NCBI RefSeq assembly: GCF_001418015.1
Contig: NZ_LIQG01000015.1
Coordinates: forward strand, 185,458 to 249,457
Length of the DNA: 64,000 nt
Reading direction: 5' to 3'
From: Lacinutrix mariniflava
GTDB lineage: Bacteria > Bacteroidota > Bacteroidia > Flavobacteriales > Flavobacteriaceae
Both the position numbers and the translations under genes were made by a program. Below are positions 50,805 through 58,376 of this stretch, one piece after another. Position 1 is the stretch's first letter; the number at the start of each line of letters is the position of its first letter. A model generated the notes under the pieces. It was not told the DNA's origin, did no database searches, and saw nothing but the letters and a program-made list of their open reading frames with translations.

Positions 50805-50812
50805 TATATTTG
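50805..50812 (+). promoter_or_regulatory. Putative -7 promoter box of the AAA/ABC cluster
   Basis: TATATTTG, an exact TAnnTTTG match, lies 18 nt before the start of the CbbX-like ATPase gene. No TTG is seen at the expected -33 distance. Confidence 0.45.
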
Positions 50813-50830: not shown

Positions 50831-52321
50831 ATGAAAAACGAAACGAAGCCTTTAGCTTTAACTATTTCTACAGAGTATATAGATTTGCTAAAGATAGAAA
50901 GTGATAAAATACTTATTAATTGCAAGCAGTTAAATGGTAATAAAGCATTTTTAAGTTCTTTTAATACCATTTTAAATTCAGATTCTCATAATATTAGCTA
51001 TAAGGCAGAACACGTTTTATTACATGATTTATTAATTGTTTTTAATGAATTAACTGCTACTTATAAAACTTTAACTGAAGTTCCTGCGAAAGTAAAATTT
51101 ATTTTAATTTATTTTTATGAAAGACTTCAAGGTAAAGATTTAAGTAAATCTTTCGATATAAAAATGATTAACAAATTGGTGCAATCGCCTCAACTTGATA
51201 AAAATGTAAAACTTATTCAGAAAACTGCTTTTTTTCATCCTATAAAAGAGATGGAAAATGAGTTTATATTGCCATCTGTTTTAACTAAAATAAAAGAAGA
51301 TAATTTATTAAGCATTACTTCTTTTTTAAACCGCATTGCAGCTTTAATGCTAAATGCAGACGATAAAATTACAAATGAAGAAGGTATTGTACTTAAAACT
51401 GTTTCAGATAAAATTAATAATCCTAAAATTATAGTTGATAAAGCAATTTATAGTCAAGTTCCAGAGAACGACACGCTAGAAATTGTAATGGCAGAACTTA
51501 ATGAATTAATTGGCTTAAAAGAAGTTAAAAAAAGTATAGAGGATCTCACTAATTTTTTAAAGGTTCAAAAATTACGAGAATTAAAAGGGCTTAAAACATC
51601 CAATAATTCTTTACATGCTGTTTTTATGGGACCACCAGGAACAGGTAAAACTACCGTTGCAAGAATGCTTGGCCGTATTTATAAACATTTAGGTTATTTA
51701 GAAAGTGGTCACCTTATAGAAACAGATCGAGCAGGTTTGGTGGCTGGTTATGTTGGGCAAACGGCTATTAAAACCGAAGAAATTATTCAATCTGCCTTAG
51801 GTGGAGTCTTATTTATTGATGAAGCTTATTCGCTTACTTCTGGAGGTTTAAATGATTTTGGAGGAGAAGCTATAGAAATTTTATTAAAGCGAATGGAAGA
51901 CCAACGTAGCAATTTAGTTGTTATTGTAGCTGGTTATCCGGATGAAATGGAAACTTTTATACAATCTAATCCTGGATTACAATCTAGGTTTAACCGTTAT
52001 TTTAAATATAATCATTTTAGTGTTGATGGGCTTTTAAAGATTTTTAAATTATATGTAAAAAAAGCTGATTTTAATCTTACCGCTAATGCTGAAGAAAAGT
52101 TACTAGAAATTTTAGAAAGAGTACACAAAAAAATACATAAAGGGTTTGGTAACGCTAGGACAATGCGTAATTTATTTGAAAAAATAATTGAGAGACAAGC
52201 AAATAGAATTGTTTCAATTGTGCCTATTACAGAAGAAATATTGATTACTTTAAAAGAAGAAGATATTCCCGAAATACTAAAAACAGTAAAAGAAATCACC
52301 ATTTTTGGGGAAGAAAATTAG
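50831..52321 (+). CDS. CbbX/SpoVK-like AAA ATPase with TerB-like N-terminal region
   Basis: A 496-aa cytoplasmic ATPase. Residues 1-210 are helical; a stretch near 167-195 (LNRIAALMLNADDKITNEEGIVLKTV) has the DGxxxxxE-like look of a TerB metal-binding domain. The AAA+ domain runs from about 220 to the end: ELIGLKEVKKSI, Walker A GPPGTGKT at 267-274, VGQTAIKT pore-loop region, Walker B GVLFIDEA at 325-332, SRFNRYF and a C-terminal lid (GFGNARTMRNLFEKIIERQANRI) as in CbbX and SpoVK. No RuBisCO is present, so activase function is ruled out here. It begins a seven-gene same-strand set with an ABC transporter. Confidence 0.87.
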   Translation: MKNETKPLALTISTEYIDLLKIESDKILINCKQLNGNKAFLSSFNTILNSDSHNISYKAEHVLLHDLLIVFNELTATYKTLTEVPAKVKFILIYFYERLQGKDLSKSFDIKMINKLVQSPQLDKNVKLIQKTAFFHPIKEMENEFILPSVLTKIKEDNLLSITSFLNRIAALMLNADDKITNEEGIVLKTVSDKINNPKIIVDKAIYSQVPENDTLEIVMAELNELIGLKEVKKSIEDLTNFLKVQKLRELKGLKTSNNSLHAVFMGPPGTGKTTVARMLGRIYKHLGYLESGHLIETDRAGLVAGYVGQTAIKTEEIIQSALGGVLFIDEAYSLTSGGLNDFGGEAIEILLKRMEDQRSNLVVIVAGYPDEMETFIQSNPGLQSRFNRYFKYNHFSVDGLLKIFKLYVKKADFNLTANAEEKLLEILERVHKKIHKGFGNARTMRNLFEKIIERQANRIVSIVPITEEILITLKEEDIPEILKTVKEITIFGEEN

Positions 52322-52378
52322 TAAATAGTGTAACACTTAACATTTATTTAAGACATATAAATTAAACAAACTCAAACA

Positions 52379-52879
52379 ATGACAATACAGGATTTAATAG
52401 ATTGGTTTAATGGGAATCATTATATAACATTAGGCTATTTTGCTATTATTATACTTTTAACAGTAATTGTGGTGTCAATTATTAATACCAATAATGCTAA
52501 AGCATTAAAATATGTAATGAGTGCAATAGTTTATGCTGTTACCATTCCAGGTGTTCTAGCGGTAATTCTTGTATTATATGCGTTGCTAATGCAAAGATCT
52601 AACATTTTAAATGTAGGAATTGTAACCTATTTTGTTCCTATTGTTGCCATGGTTATAACCTTAATGATTTTAAATAAAAAGGTGTTGATGCGTAATATTC
52701 CTGGTTTCGATAAATTGTCTAGTTTAATATTAATGATTGGAATTGCATTCGGAATCATATTTATACTACAAAAAACATATTTTGGAGTATTATTTATAGG
52801 TGGTTTCACACAGTTAATAATGGTTTTTGCTGTAGTTTTAATCATCCTTAAGGTTGCTTGGTCTCGATTCACTAAGTAA
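52379..52879 (+). CDS. Five-helix membrane protein
   Basis: A 166-aa integral membrane protein with about five hydrophobic segments (near residues 17-40, 41-66, 74-98, 104-128 and 137-160) and almost no polar loops. No family recognised. It lies 57 nt after the AAA ATPase and 89 nt before the first coiled-coil gene in a run of seven same-strand genes, so it is probably a structural part of the same system. Confidence 0.7.
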   Translation: MTIQDLIDWFNGNHYITLGYFAIIILLTVIVVSIINTNNAKALKYVMSAIVYAVTIPGVLAVILVLYALLMQRSNILNVGIVTYFVPIVAMVITLMILNKKVLMRNIPGFDKLSSLILMIGIAFGIIFILQKTYFGVLFIGGFTQLIMVFAVVLIILKVAWSRFTK

Positions 52880-52968
52880 GACAAATCATTAATACAGTTA
52901 ATAGTTATAATAATTTATTTAAATTTACGTGCGTTATTAGTAAATAAAAGAGATCAAATATATTTTAA

Positions 52969-53667
52969 ATGAGTAAAGAAAAATTTAGTTGGAAAGGACT
53001 ATTCTTAAATGAAGAAGGAAACGAGAATAAAACTCCAGAAAGAGAAATGCCTAAAAGTAATGCTTCGTCAAATACTTTTCCAGAGTCAAAAAGCACGGTA
53101 GCTTCTTCAGCATCAAGGTTTCCAGAGTCTACAGCAAATGCAGTTGTTGGAGTTAATGATGCAGTGCTTCAAAAAATTATAGAAATGTATGAGTCTGGTT
53201 TCGAATCTTTAAATAAACCAGGATACGATTTTTATGAGTTTTTTAAAGCTATAAAAGCCGTAGGAAGTAATGATCCTTCTATTTATAAAATGGCTTTAAC
53301 TATGGCATCTAGTGTAGATGAAAGCGTTTCTAAAGCTTCATTATTAAAGCAAGCCGATTTTTATATAGAAGAAATAGAAAAAGTACATAAAAAATATAAA
53401 ATACAAGGCGCTGCAAAAAAAGATCAAATATTAGGAAGCCAAAAAGCAGAAAAAAGCACTTTGACTACTGAGATTTCGTCTTTAGAAAAACAGTTAATGG
53501 AAATTCAGCATCAAATAAGTACTAAGAAAAATCAATTGCAAGCCATCACTTCAAATAGTAGTGATGTTATCGATATAGACCAAAAAATCATGGCAAATGA
53601 TACAGCCAAATCAAAAATATTAGAAACAATACTTCAGGTTGTAGATGGTATTAAAAACAACTTATAA
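52969..53667 (+). CDS. Coiled-coil cytoplasmic protein of the AAA/ABC cluster
   Basis: A 232-aa soluble protein. An N-terminal low-complexity region rich in Ser, Asn and Pro (about 15-60, two copies of a FPES motif) precedes a helical domain (about 66-145) and a coiled coil (about 150-205, KSTLTTEISSLEKQLMEIQHQISTKKNQL). No catalytic motif or family recognised. The gene for the membrane coiled-coil protein starts 4 nt after its stop, so the two are likely made together and may interact through their coiled coils. Confidence 0.72.
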   Translation: MSKEKFSWKGLFLNEEGNENKTPEREMPKSNASSNTFPESKSTVASSASRFPESTANAVVGVNDAVLQKIIEMYESGFESLNKPGYDFYEFFKAIKAVGSNDPSIYKMALTMASSVDESVSKASLLKQADFYIEEIEKVHKKYKIQGAAKKDQILGSQKAEKSTLTTEISSLEKQLMEIQHQISTKKNQLQAITSNSSDVIDIDQKIMANDTAKSKILETILQVVDGIKNNL

Positions 53668-53671
53668 ATAG

Positions 53672-54793
53672 ATGGATTTAAAAGAATCAAAAAAACATGT
53701 ACTCGATTTACCTATTCTAAAACATTTTGATGATGAGAAAGGTGAAATTTCATTAAATCCTAACAAGTGGAGAAATGGAGAAAAAGGACTTAATTCATTA
53801 CTTAAAATAGCATTATTTGCTGGGTTAGGTTATGCAGCTTGGGTTTATGTATTACCACCTTTATTTACTGCTTTAGGACAAATTATAGCACTTGCAGGTG
53901 TTGCGGTATTTCTTGTCTTTTTTATACTAATGTTACCTGTAATTTTTAAAGGACTAAAACGTTTAACTAGATTTTTACATAAATCATTAATAAAACATGA
54001 TCCTTTTGGAGAATTAGAAGAGCAAAAGCAAAAAATGTTTAAAAACAGAAAAGTTTTTAAAGATGCAAAGGCTAAAATAAAAGCCTTAAAAAATAATATG
54101 GAATCAGAATCTTATAAAGCAGAAAAAGAAGCTAAAGATTTTCAAGACCAAGTATTAGCGTTACAAAAGCATGCTCAAAAAATTAAAGATAAAATGGAAG
54201 CTATAGTTGCCGAAAAAGGTAGCGCTGGTAGAGATACAGACGACTATGTAGAACTGCACAGTATGTTAGCCAAAAAATTATCGCAATCACAACGTATTAC
54301 GCACCAATTAACACAAAGCAAAAGTTTTATCCAGAAATATGGAAGTAGAGCGGTGGTAATGGGTAAACTAGATAGAAAATTAACATTAGCAGGTACTGCA
54401 ATAGATATTAAAATATCAGATTTTGAAGTTACCATAAGTATGTTAGAAAAGGAATATCAGTTTGCCAAAACAGCTAAGGCAGCAACAGATGGTGCTAAAT
54501 CTGCAATGCATTTTACAAAGGATTGGGAGTTAGAATATGCTTTAGATGTTATTACAGAAACTATTGCTATTGATATTGCAAAAACACAAGAAAACTTATC
54601 AGACATAGATATGTTAACCTCTAAGTATGATGTTGATAGTGATGAGCTGTATGCTCAGTTAGATACGCTTGCAGATAAAATTAAAACAGGTAAAGATCTA
54701 ATACCAGAATCAAAAAAATACACTAATCCAAGTTACAAGCTTACTCAAGAGGATAAACAAGCAAGTGGTGGTTTTGGTAACATGTTCGAATAA
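53672..54793 (+). CDS. Membrane-anchored coiled-coil protein of the AAA/ABC cluster
   Basis: A 373-aa protein. Residues 1-40 are soluble, about 44-100 hold two membrane helices (LLKIALFAGLGYAAWVYVLPP, ALAGVAVFLVFFILMLPVIF), and the rest is a long helical region with coiled coils (about 115-190 and 225-320, RKVFKDAKAKIKALKNNMES). The C-terminal tail ends GFGNMFE. The long cytoplasmic helices recall PspA-like or other membrane-remodelling proteins, but there is no clear homology. Tightly linked to the previous gene and 22 nt before the SBP-OmpA gene. Confidence 0.72.
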   Translation: MDLKESKKHVLDLPILKHFDDEKGEISLNPNKWRNGEKGLNSLLKIALFAGLGYAAWVYVLPPLFTALGQIIALAGVAVFLVFFILMLPVIFKGLKRLTRFLHKSLIKHDPFGELEEQKQKMFKNRKVFKDAKAKIKALKNNMESESYKAEKEAKDFQDQVLALQKHAQKIKDKMEAIVAEKGSAGRDTDDYVELHSMLAKKLSQSQRITHQLTQSKSFIQKYGSRAVVMGKLDRKLTLAGTAIDIKISDFEVTISMLEKEYQFAKTAKAATDGAKSAMHFTKDWELEYALDVITETIAIDIAKTQENLSDIDMLTSKYDVDSDELYAQLDTLADKIKTGKDLIPESKKYTNPSYKLTQEDKQASGGFGNMFE

Positions 54794-54815
54794 TTATTAA
54801 AATAGAAAAATAAAA

Positions 54816-56630
54816 ATGGGAAAAATTTTACGCACTTCAAAACTTACAACATTATCAGAGTTGATAATTGTAATTATATTATTAGGAGGTATACTAGGAG
54901 CCGTTTATTACTTTGCGCCAGGACTTAGGGTAGGTGAGGCTAAGCAACTAGAAGAATTAAATATTGATAAAAATGAAGTTAACAATGTAATAACTTCAGA
55001 TAAATTAGGATTACCATCTACCTCACTTTCAAGTGAAGTAAAAAACAATCCAAAAGTAAGAATTGCAGCATATGCTTGGAATGCGCAATCTGGTATTATT
55101 GTATCTAATGGAGGTCCTAAAACCACTAAAGGATCATTAATGGAACAAAATGGTGTTAATTTAGAAATTATTCGTCAAGATTGGCTTTCTGAATTAAGAA
55201 ACATGCAAATGAAATTTATTGAAGAATTTGATAGAGGAGAAGAATTTCCTGATTCAGATAAAAGTGCATTTGCTATTATGATGATGGGTGATGGTGCTCC
55301 TTTTTATATTAGTACTATGCAACAGGCTTTAGACGATAAATTTGGTAAAGATAAATACCATGTACAGGTTGTTGGTGCAGTTGGTCTTAGTTATGGTGAA
55401 GATAAATTAATAGGACCACCAAGTTGGAAAGTAGATCCTAAAAGTATGAAAGGTGCTCTAATTTCTACCGTATTAGGTGATGGTGATTGGGTAACTGCTT
55501 TAAACTATGCTTTTGCAAATGGGTTAAAAGTAAATCCAGATTCAAATACGTATGATCCAGATGCAGTTAATTTTTATCCTTCTCAGGATGATGATTATAT
55601 AAAATCAGCCGAAGAGTTAATTAAATCTCAAAAAGCAGGTTGGACAGTGCCTTTAAAAGAAGTTAAAAATGGTAAACTTACAGGTAAGATTATCAATAAG
55701 AAAATAGATGGTTGTGCAACTTGGACTCCAGGTGATAAAATGGTTTTTGATGAGTTAAGTGGATTTACAGATATTATTTCAACCAAAGAATTTAACAATC
55801 AAATGGCGACAACAGTTATTGCTGTTAAAGAATGGTCTATTAAGCACCCGAAAATTGTTAGTAACATATTAAAATCTGCATTAACGGCATCAAACCAAAT
55901 GAAACAGTATGATGATTGGAGTGTAAGAGCTTCAGAGGCTGTAGCAGAAACTTACGACCTAGAGAACGCTAAATATTGGTATGATATGTTTAAAGGTCAA
56001 ACAGGAACAAAAAATGGTATAGATTATAACATGGGAGGTTCTAGAGTCTTTAATTATGCAGATGTAATGCAGTATTATGGTATTTCTGATGGAACAAACC
56101 GTTATAAAGCAGTTTATAACCAAGTATCTTCTTACTTAAGCGAATTAAATCCGTTTGGTTTTAACGAATCTGTTAAAAGAATTGTGCCTTATGATGAAGC
56201 TGTAAATTTATACTTTTTAAAGAATATAAATGATATTGATGCAGGTTCTGCTTATAAAGCAGATTACTCAAAAACAGCAGATAAAGTAGTTGCTTCTGGA
56301 GAGTGGAATATTAATTTTGATACCGGTAGTGCTAATGTTTCAAGCTCATCTGCAAGTACATTAGAAAATATTTATAATTTACTAATACAAGCTGAGGATA
56401 CTAAATTAAAATTAGAAGGACATACAGATAATACAGGTTCTTCTGAAGCTAATTACGATTTATCTCAACGTCGTGCACAAGCAATAGTTACTTTCTTAAG
56501 AGGAAAAGGAATTCCTCAGTCTAGATTTCAAAGTGTAATTGGTAAAGGTGAAGATTCTCCAATATCAAGTAACAGTACTAACACTGGTAGAGCTAAAAAT
56601 AGACGTGTAGTAATTGCGCTATTAAAGTAA
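54816..56630 (+). CDS. Membrane-anchored substrate-binding protein fused to an OmpA domain
   Basis: A 604-aa protein. Residues about 15-35 form a signal-anchor helix. Residues about 55-480 look like a periplasmic substrate-binding domain of the NMT1/SsuA type (IAAYAWNAQSGIIVSNGG, then EIIRQDWLSELRN, VIAVKEWSIKHPKIVSNILKSAL). The last 115 residues are an OmpA-like peptidoglycan-binding domain (INFDTGSANVSSSS, KLKLEGHTDNTGSSEANYDLSQRRAQ read in parts, GRAKNRRVVIAL) with the conserved Asp and Arg. An SBP tethered to the inner membrane and to peptidoglycan is unusual. The adjacent NitT/TauT-type permease and ATPase genes are its expected partners. Ligand unknown. Confidence 0.85.
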   Translation: MGKILRTSKLTTLSELIIVIILLGGILGAVYYFAPGLRVGEAKQLEELNIDKNEVNNVITSDKLGLPSTSLSSEVKNNPKVRIAAYAWNAQSGIIVSNGGPKTTKGSLMEQNGVNLEIIRQDWLSELRNMQMKFIEEFDRGEEFPDSDKSAFAIMMMGDGAPFYISTMQQALDDKFGKDKYHVQVVGAVGLSYGEDKLIGPPSWKVDPKSMKGALISTVLGDGDWVTALNYAFANGLKVNPDSNTYDPDAVNFYPSQDDDYIKSAEELIKSQKAGWTVPLKEVKNGKLTGKIINKKIDGCATWTPGDKMVFDELSGFTDIISTKEFNNQMATTVIAVKEWSIKHPKIVSNILKSALTASNQMKQYDDWSVRASEAVAETYDLENAKYWYDMFKGQTGTKNGIDYNMGGSRVFNYADVMQYYGISDGTNRYKAVYNQVSSYLSELNPFGFNESVKRIVPYDEAVNLYFLKNINDIDAGSAYKADYSKTADKVVASGEWNINFDTGSANVSSSSASTLENIYNLLIQAEDTKLKLEGHTDNTGSSEANYDLSQRRAQAIVTFLRGKGIPQSRFQSVIGKGEDSPISSNSTNTGRAKNRRVVIALLK

Positions 56631-56723
56631 TCATAATATAAAAGAGAGGATGTGTAGCAGAAATTAAAGTTTTTGTTACACAGCTTTCTTTAATTTAACT
56701 ATTCTTACAAAAACAAAAAGCTT

Positions 56724-57494
56724 GTGAAATTATTATTTAAACCTTTCGAAAAAGTTAGTAAAAACACGCGACTTCTTATTGTATTGTTTTGGGTAGTATT
56801 AGTTGTTACTTTCTGGTTTATATCCAGTATGGGAGAAAGACATTTATTTCCATCGCCTCAACAGGTTTTTACTGGTTTTTCAGAACTTTATAATGAAGGT
56901 CTAGTCGTTCATGTTGCTAGTTCTTTATTTTTATGCCTAAAAGCCATAATAATAGCGGTGATTATTTCTCTAATATTTGCTTATTTATCCACTATACCAG
57001 TTATTAAGCCATTAGCAAATACATTAAGTAAACTAAGATATTTACCATTAACAGGAATTACGTTTTACTTAACTATTTTAATTAATGACGCTAGAACAAT
57101 GCAAGTTTGGGTGTTGGTTGTTTTTATGAGTACGTATCTTACCACATCATTATTGAGTATGGTAAGCGCTATACCTCAAGAAGAATTCGATCATGCACGC
57201 TCTTTACAATGTAAACGTTGGGAAGTCCTTTGGGAGGTTGTTATAAAAGGTAGAGTAGACCATGTAATAGAAGTTATTAGACAGAATTTAGCTATTGTCT
57301 GGATGATGTTGGTAACAGTAGAATCTATTCTTGTTGCTGCAGGTGGTTTAGGTTTTTTAATAAAAAACTCAGATAAATTCATGAACCATGGTAGAATTAT
57401 TGCGCTGCAAATTGTAATACTCTTTGTTGGTTTATCGATTGACTTTATATTAAATTATTTAAGAAAAACATTCTTTAGATATTCTAAAATTTAA
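56724..57494 (+). CDS. ABC transporter permease (NitT/TauT type)
   Basis: A 256-aa inner membrane permease with about six helices. The cytoplasmic EAA-type loop EEFDHARSLQCKRWEVLWEVVI lies near residues 152-173 and the following segment (VTVESILVAAGGLGFLIKNS) fits the BPD_transp_1/SsuC family. It starts at GTG 56724 (no ATG fits the N-terminus). The ATPase gene follows after 4 nt. It should form the membrane channel for the ligand of the SBP-OmpA protein. Confidence 0.87.
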   Translation: MKLLFKPFEKVSKNTRLLIVLFWVVLVVTFWFISSMGERHLFPSPQQVFTGFSELYNEGLVVHVASSLFLCLKAIIIAVIISLIFAYLSTIPVIKPLANTLSKLRYLPLTGITFYLTILINDARTMQVWVLVVFMSTYLTTSLLSMVSAIPQEEFDHARSLQCKRWEVLWEVVIKGRVDHVIEVIRQNLAIVWMMLVTVESILVAAGGLGFLIKNSDKFMNHGRIIALQIVILFVGLSIDFILNYLRKTFFRYSKI

Positions 57495-57498
57495 TTAA

Positions 57499-58326
57499 AT
57501 GACATACAGTACAGAAAACACTTTATTATATGTAGAGGATTTGAGCGTATCTTATGGAGATAAGACCGTTATAAAAGATATCAACTTTGTTGAAAAAGAT
57601 GTCATAAGAACTGGTAATGTTACAGGGCAAGTTATTGCTTTTGTTGGACGTTCCGGACGTGGTAAATCGACATTATTTAGAGCTTTAACTGGTTTGGTAA
57701 AACCAAGTTCAGGAAAAGTTTTAATAGCAGATACAACCACAGGTATTGATAACGATGCAAAAGTTGTAAATGAAGGAGATATTGGTTTTGTAGATCAAAA
57801 ATATACTTTGTTTAGAAATAAAACAGTCTCTCAAGCACTCATGTTTGCTTTGCGTAATAAAGAAATTACAAAGGAGGAAAAAGAAGTTAAAATAAAAGAA
57901 TATTTACACCAATGGGGACTTGAAAAGGTTAAAGATCAATATCCTAATGAGTTGTCTGGTGGTCAGCGTCAGCGAACTGCGATTATAGAACAAATATTCT
58001 GTTCAGGTCATTATATGGTTTTAGACGAGCCTTTTTCAGGTTTAGATGTAGGTAACATACAGGATGTAAAAGATGCTTTTAACTTAATGACTGCTAGTCA
58101 TGAATTTAATACTATCATTTACTCAACACACGATATAGAATTGGCAGTTGAACTAGCAGATAGTATTTATGTTATAGGATATCCTAGTATAGAAGGCAAA
58201 TTAGCCGATTATGGTACAATTGTTAAGCATATAGATATGAAAGAAATTGGACTGGCTTGGAAAGATTTTGGATTAGATCATATGGAGGTTGTAAAACAAA
58301 TAAAAGCAGCTATGCTTAGTTCTTAA
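57499..58326 (+). CDS. ABC transporter ATP-binding protein
   Basis: A 275-aa ABC ATPase with Walker A GRSGRGKST near residues 50-58, Q-loop FVDQKYTLFRNKTV, signature LSGGQRQR near 152-159, Walker B YMVLDEPFSGLD near 173-184 and the switch His in YSTHD. It has a C-terminal extension of about 50 residues. Together with the permease and the SBP-OmpA protein it makes an importer-like set. Last gene of the cluster; a terminator follows. Confidence 0.9.
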   Translation: MTYSTENTLLYVEDLSVSYGDKTVIKDINFVEKDVIRTGNVTGQVIAFVGRSGRGKSTLFRALTGLVKPSSGKVLIADTTTGIDNDAKVVNEGDIGFVDQKYTLFRNKTVSQALMFALRNKEITKEEKEVKIKEYLHQWGLEKVKDQYPNELSGGQRQRTAIIEQIFCSGHYMVLDEPFSGLDVGNIQDVKDAFNLMTASHEFNTIIYSTHDIELAVELADSIYVIGYPSIEGKLADYGTIVKHIDMKEIGLAWKDFGLDHMEVVKQIKAAMLSS

Positions 58327-58351: not shown

Positions 58352-58376
58352 AAACTCCTGAGAAGGAGTTTTTTTG
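58352..58376 (+). terminator. Rho-independent terminator
   Basis: A perfect 8-bp stem AAACTCCT/AGGAGTTT with a GAGA loop followed by Ts, 26 nt after the ABC ATPase gene. Confidence 0.85.

Follow-up and report, generated by a model that had tools for sequence, protein, structure and literature searches.

A putative wall-tethered ABC importer module with coiled-coil partners in Lacinutrix mariniflava, its five-gene core recurring in several giant phages

What is the function of a gene block that combines an AAA ATPase, membrane and coiled-coil proteins and an ATP-binding cassette (ABC) transporter? Such a block is located at positions 50831..58326 of the window, a 64,000-nt stretch of contig NZ_LIQG01000015.1 of Lacinutrix mariniflava. 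Seven open reading frames (ORFs), every one on the + strand, were found there by ORF listing of the window. The unit is composed of a five-gene core, encoding the coiled-coil proteins CC1 and CC2, a solute-binding protein (SBP), a permease and an ABC ATPase, and of two accessory genes for the AAA ATPase and the multi-transmembrane (TM) protein TM5. The module is carried by several giant phages, not by all. Its recurrence in dozens of genomes and viruses makes the set more than a chance association. With modest confidence we regard the module as an ATP-driven importer tied to both membrane and wall and equipped with a PspA-like scaffold, of which the core recurs in phages. The original prediction, made from the DNA alone, proposed a transport machine fixed to the cell wall, and this remains the best reading.

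The transporter part consists of three core genes. The SBP (gene 5; 54816..56630, + strand) carries an N-terminal hydrophobic anchor, binding-protein lobes and a C-terminal OmpA domain, the last at about residues 499-601 and over the Pfam cut-off. The OmpA residues are retained across phage and bacterial SBPs. NMT1-type lobes together with OmpA are present in the SBPs of phage G (gp249), Lak phages and phage LR756501, and the NitT/TauT character of the window SBP rests on these homologues. Of the predicted SBP-OmpA fusion, the OmpA half was recognized by Pfam in the window protein itself and the binding lobes only in homologues. The NitT/TauT-like permease (56724..57494, +) matched BPD_transp_1 (PF00528, 30.8 bits) and the ABC ATPase (57499..58326, +) matched ABC_tran (PF00005, 93 bits), both above cut-off; in the ATPase the motifs GRSGRGKST (Walker A), LSGGQRQR, VLDEP and STHD are readable. 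The domain types predicted for the AAA protein, OmpA, permease and ATPase were all recovered with Pfam and NCBIfam. TM5 (gene 2; 52379..52879, +), the soluble coiled coil CC1 (gene 3; 52969..53667, +) and the membrane coiled coil CC2 (gene 4; 53672..54793, +) stayed below every family cut-off of Pfam and NCBIfam.

Recurrence in bacteria was seen at 63 genome-contig loci with an SBP of 70-92% identity, among them loci of Aquimarina, Cellulophaga, Flavobacterium, Fulvivirga, Marivirga, Pedobacter, Aequorivita and others; three (L047, L052, L055) are short contigs. ORF clustering detected the SBP in all 63, permease and ATPase in 62 each, CC1, CC2 and AAA in 61 each, and TM5 in 17. The order CC1-CC2-SBP-permease-ATPase is collinear in the bacterial loci, with extra genes inserted in L051. 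The AAA gene stands upstream of the core in the Aquimarina/Cellulophaga type and downstream in the Flavobacterium type. In a survey of 395 genomes of the phylum, CC2 was found in 5, the window's own counted, and full-length SBP-OmpA in 8 (own, three Flavobacterium-type and four divergent) when three candidates per genome were scored. Among the four divergent loci (L180-L183; same class), L180 and L183 contain all five core genes, while the ORF caller left the ATPase unlabelled in L181 and the permease unlabelled in L182. Neither AAA nor TM5 was detected within 19.5 kb of these loci, and AAA_lid_6 was absent from all four genomes. In a plasmid search CC2 found no match, and gp249 gave 59 records, none reaching 80% coverage. 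The contig of L051, which is titled Limnohabitans, carries a block and neighbouring genes both of the Flavobacterium type, probably due to a binning error.

Viral copies were detected by tblastn in a phage collection, in which LR756500 (462 kb) matched CC2 at 52% and SBP at 65.5% and carries the five core genes consecutively, as in the window. Searching of IMG/VR gave 9 loci and then 58 loci containing those 9; some of these are near copies, many of the records are fragments, and L159 (429 kb) is identical to LR756500 in the columns used for the trees. An SBP ORF was present in 56 of the 58, accompanied by permease in 54, CC2 in 53, ATPase in 52 and CC1 in 51. Terminase (PF03237) was identified in three of eight viral records (353, 362 and 462 kb), not in the 429-kb record, and in five of 20 further records (206-369 kb); phrog_2 was found in none of 10 viral records. 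Viral-contig scans with CC2 and with the SBP of a 735-kb phage confirmed nothing.

That 735-kb phage, LR756501, was reached through a weak match and contains five adjacent genes in the order CC1-CC2-SBP-permease-ATPase. Its SBP matches 15 Lak records (540-552 kb) and gp249 of Bacillus phage G, and its permease matches Lak phages and phage G as well. Lak-A1, the one Lak record that was read, has the same order with small genes interspersed. In phage G the order is rearranged: permease gp243, ATPase gp245, coiled coils gp246-247, and SBP-OmpA gp249 plus gp250. A variant in LR756511 (595 kb; L193:2610-11172) contains a von Willebrand factor A (VWA) gene, two SBP-profile matches, permease and ATPase. 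The permease family was matched in five of eight giant records, all five being carriers known or suspected beforehand, with Lak below cut-off; it was unmatched in the three giants added as a check (642, 636 and 484 kb).

These arrangements bear on the proposal that the locus is an ordinary NitT/TauT importer with coincidental neighbours. Such importers are common, and both AAA and TM5 come and go, as that proposal would have it; CC1 and CC2, however, adjoin SBP, permease and ATPase in bacteria, in huge phages and in remote megaphages, and we consider coincidence very improbable. Separation of the ABC genes from the remaining genes, which would speak against the original prediction, was observed for AAA, whereas CC1 and CC2 remain beside the transporter genes except in genome G227. 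There CC2 and TM5 adjoin (L184:8332-10061) with no transporter within 19 kb, an arrangement from which the two may work as a pair.

Remote homology was examined by profile comparison with single proteins of the megaphages Lak, LR756501 and phage G. The SBP was related to megaphage SBPs at 98.1-99.2%, the matches to Lak and LR756501 covering its second half with OmpA included; the permease was related at 97.2-97.9% and the ATPase at 99.8-99.9%. CC1 gave 96.6 with Lak, 98.0 with LR756501 and 0.4 with phage G, and is homologous to the Lak-A1 and LR756501 proteins; CC2 gave 92.4 with LR756501, 2.9 with Lak and 0.3 with phage G. Between the window and nine viral sets, identity was 53-77% for the SBP lobes (80-480), 49-66% for OmpA, 51-70% for permease, 54-65% for ATPase and 30-53% for CC2, and 31-44% for CC1 (eight sets). 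The lobes were the most conserved part in seven of the nine comparisons. Binding proteins generally diverge fast, and so this strong conservation makes a common ligand likely; the window and phage SBPs probably share it.

In phylogenetic trees the bacterial rows are placed among viral lineages, and 21 AAA-bearing bacterial rows group with two 160-kb contigs of phage-like content with a support of 100. The reading in which bacteria acquired the module from phages was given up, since the approximately unbiased (AU) test did not reject a single clade of the 35 non-mega viruses (p 0.625; the constrained tree was better by 6.4 log units). As judged from these trees, the module was likely exchanged between phages and bacteria.

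CC2 is probably a transmembrane relative of PspA/IM30, with the kinship running through intermediates. The window and viral CC2s matched the CC2 profile of the divergent loci L180-L183 at 95.8-97.7%, and that profile scored 88 against PspA and 0.6-1.0 against reversed controls. Individually, the CC2 proteins of L181, L182 and L183 matched PF04012 (PspA) at 9.8e-7, 4.2e-8 and 3.5e-7, each below cut-off, and only L181-L183 were found well by hmmsearch with the PspA profile. The three megaphage CC2s combined scored 77 against PspA and 8 against the reversed control, and a protein at the CC2 position of phage fragment MT835556 matched PF04012 at 7.8e-11, above cut-off.

Several results weigh against the importer-with-scaffold reading. 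Window-type CC2 had no Pfam match to PspA (PF04012), and direct PspA homology was rejected as weak (34.5%; 8.2 against PspA and 4.8 against reversed PspA for the window-type profile), the relation working only via intermediates. Some CC1 proteins outrank every window-type CC2 in the hmmsearch with the PspA profile; CC1 as a PspA was itself rejected, with a probability of 1 or less. The structure model of CC2, which combines helices at the N-terminus with a long hairpin and some shorter helices, is poor (predicted local distance difference test, pLDDT, 62.5); Foldseek with this model found nothing at E<=0.001, the VIPP1 chains in its output having E values of 0.2-0.7 and standing among numerous other coiled coils. 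Lak CC2 and phage G CC1 and CC2 have no sequence link to the family, and their assignment rests on position and architecture. As for the transporter, the binding-protein part of the window SBP had no Pfam match of its own, the SBP model is poor (pLDDT 42), and the lobes are not the most conserved part in L151, L154, L180 and L183. Since the families of the permease and the ATPase are very large, their scores alone are no proof of one system.

The probable kinship of CC2 also supports a different function, an envelope-stress sensor and repair device like the phage-shock-protein (PSP) system. The SBP would then report a periplasmic signal or the distance between wall and membrane, the ABC part would serve as a signalling or energy device with import secondary, and CC2 and CC1 would polymerise to seal leaks. 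That the window's own genome had no PF04012 match agrees with such a role, as does the link drawn between operons of this kind and membrane remodelling by Ravi et al. That the SBP lobes are strongly conserved in the majority of comparisons, in contrast, fits ligand binding, and a complete permease and ATPase have been retained with the core; we judge a stress device rather unlikely.

The first gene (50831..52321, +) encodes an accessory AAA ATPase with AAA plus AAA_lid_6, SpoVK/CbbX/EccA-like by Pfam and NCBIfam, behind an N-terminal region of about 215 amino acids (aa) without family assignment. Its bit scores stayed under all three NCBIfam equivalog cut-offs: 297.8 against 422.95 for CbbX, 240.2 against 459.25 for SpoVK and 229.7 against 466.65 for EccA. 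The PDB sequence neighbours at E<=1e-10 are two CbbX sequences and EccA1. The TerB-like stretch and tellurite link of the original prediction were rejected for want of any Pfam support: TerB was absent among the 18 Pfam families listed for the AAA protein at E<=10 and among the best 25 of 56 families listed for 13 aligned AAA homologues, and the stretch is not preserved in Flavobacterium-type AAA homologues. In five Aquimarina-type loci (L002, L003, L005, L006, L008), an opposite-strand gene of about 730-980 aa separates AAA from CC1.

In the viral loci, a CbbX-like AAA stood beside the module in none of 56, and another kind of AAA in four (one being PF00004). AAA_lid_6 was absent from nine whole viral records and from LR756501, Lak-A1 and LR756511. 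A general lack of CbbX-class AAA ATPases in phages was rejected, as gp596 of phage G (L199:2032-3270), 262 kb away from the module, is an AAA with AAA_lid_6 of the class of the window AAA. As the gene is missing in the four divergent genomes and beside the viral copies, the predicted control by the AAA protein is not general.

For the favored importer with its scaffold, we propose the following mode of action. The SBP would be held between the inner membrane, by its N-terminal anchor, and the peptidoglycan, by its OmpA domain, where it may capture one small solute of the NitT/TauT class and pass it to the permease and ATPase. On the cytoplasmic side, CC2 and CC1 would form an assembly that preserves the integrity of the membrane surrounding the importer. 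Where bacteria have the CbbX-like AAA, it may dismantle this CC2/CC1 scaffold, like Vps4 on ESCRT-III; other bacteria and most phages seen would manage without a neighbouring AAA. For a giant phage, we infer, the core would nourish the infected cell and prevent it from leaking while replication proceeds.

The genomic setting of the block was examined in relatives. In 12 same-genus genomes, the best SBP match was never above OmpA-domain strength. The matches to the two flanking genes, which we take to encode a carboxyltransferase subunit and an FMN-reductase-like protein, are separated by 104-140 bp in eight of nine same-genus genomes examined (G006 had neither flanking gene; G010-G012 were not included) and by 7,876 bp in the window's genome. 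This empty or filled site indicates that the seven genes were gained or lost as a single unit, in agreement with the prediction of one set. Junction alignments gave no obvious target-site repeat, and the borders of the block were not pinned down. Flavobacterium copies lie mostly at one fixed site, beside what are presumably ATP-synthase genes.

Presence in one species and absence from its genus mates would suit a role in superinfection exclusion, in which the phage module alters the host surface and bacteria kept it as protection. Al-Shayeb et al. raise the possibility that susceptibility to other phages is influenced by the membrane and surface proteins that huge phages encode. The one fixed site of most Flavobacterium copies is unlike a defence island, however, and PADLOC gave only domain-level matches for the seven proteins (IetA/TRIP13-like AAA, ZorB/MotB-like OmpA and mad3/mad8 ABC stretches), on which a known anti-phage defence system was rejected. 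We hold superinfection exclusion to be quite improbable.

The original prediction knew of no named system with this make-up; in general terms, one has been published without a name. Ravi et al. 2024 (PMC11237479) devote a single sentence to an operon of PspA/Snf7, AAA, ABC and SBP/OmpA, and they also describe, in some clades, a two-AAA protein with the first copy inactive. A published system of this composition was to count against the original prediction, and it does so in part; the precedent also supports the favored reading. As far as the available passages of that paper go, both operons bring together AAA, ABC ATPase, permease, a solute/peptidoglycan-binding protein and a coiled-coil membrane protein; ABC ATPase, permease, SBP-OmpA and AAA+ were found in the window, and AAA was not in L180-L183 or the viral loci. 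Unlike the operon in those passages, the system described here has a CbbX-class AAA with a single AAA domain, CC1 and TM5, a divergent CC2, carriage by phages and AAA-free forms. CC2 resembles PspA/IM30/VIPP1 and ESCRT-III with Vps4 in its membrane helical hairpin and in an AAA partner in part of the family, but differs in its N-terminal TM helices, the other class of AAA and a kinship through intermediates. The permease and ATPase types and the NMT1-type lobes of phage homologues are those of NitT/TauT importers (TauC/SsuC-like permease), whereas the OmpA domain of the SBP and two coiled-coil proteins in the unit are not. The AAA shares core and AAA_lid_6 with CbbX/SpoVK/EccA, from which it departs in its N-terminus, its gene neighbours and its scores below the equivalog cut-offs. 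A literature search including PMC7162821, PMC7824862 and PMC8346664, with subscription papers and supplements outside it, gave no report of the module in giant phages. Within the literature so covered, the kind of operon is published in outline; no mention was found of the core as a unit, of its carriage by huge phages, of forms without the AAA or of the empty site.

A wider proposal is tentative and may well fail: several of the largest known phages, of both Gram-negative and Gram-positive hosts, would build a wall-anchored importer on a PspA-like scaffold to nourish and seal the dying host, with Bacteroidota exchanging it with their phages and adding a scaffold-recycling CbbX-like AAA as counterpart of ESCRT-III/Vps4. 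If a complete ABC importer with membrane proteins of its own is a conserved module of huge phages, they would commandeer the host's nutrient supply and the maintenance of its envelope besides replication and translation. Since the module occurs in culturable bacteria and in the isolated phage G, its ligand and PspA-like protein are open to bench testing. For an operon known in print from one sentence, the results delimit a core, add a branch in phages and offer naturally occurring forms with and without the AAA motor for comparison.

Additional genes were noted near the phage copies. In 22 of the 56 viral loci (for example, L113:9859-10287 and L168:9893-10366), but not in the window, the SBP and permease genes are separated by an ORF for a small, secreted, barrel-like protein of about 140-165 aa that is unmatched in Pfam. 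A small membrane protein family, downstream of the ATPase gene where inspected, occurs in 17 of 37 non-redundant viral loci (for example, L167:12924-13370). NAMPT-like and phosphoribosyltransferase genes are located directly downstream of one phage module (L113:12192-16708), a class II aldolase-type protein near those of LR756500 (L079:7447-8586) and Lak-A1 (L170:5696-6832), and an APS kinase/nucleotidyltransferase near that of L085; guesses of the ligand from these neighbours were rejected as too scattered. The ATPase gene of a 353-kb phage (L087:13248-14065) appears as two ORFs of 192 and 94 aa, through either a genuine break or an error in sequencing. Records CAKLQF/CAKLQH (Acinetobacter phage MD-2021a) carry annotated taurine/sulfonate transport genes and resemble bacterial chromosome contigs more than phage.

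Expression signals were also predicted on both sides of the block. Upstream of the first gene, sequence reading revealed a candidate -7 promoter box, TATATTTG (50805..50812, +), which fits the Bacteroidota -7 consensus TAnnTTTG; no clear -33 box was seen there. Downstream, a stem-loop at 58352..58375 (+), missing from the output of a consensus scan, was read by eye as the predicted intrinsic terminator, AAACTCCT-GAGA-AGGAGTTT followed by a T run.

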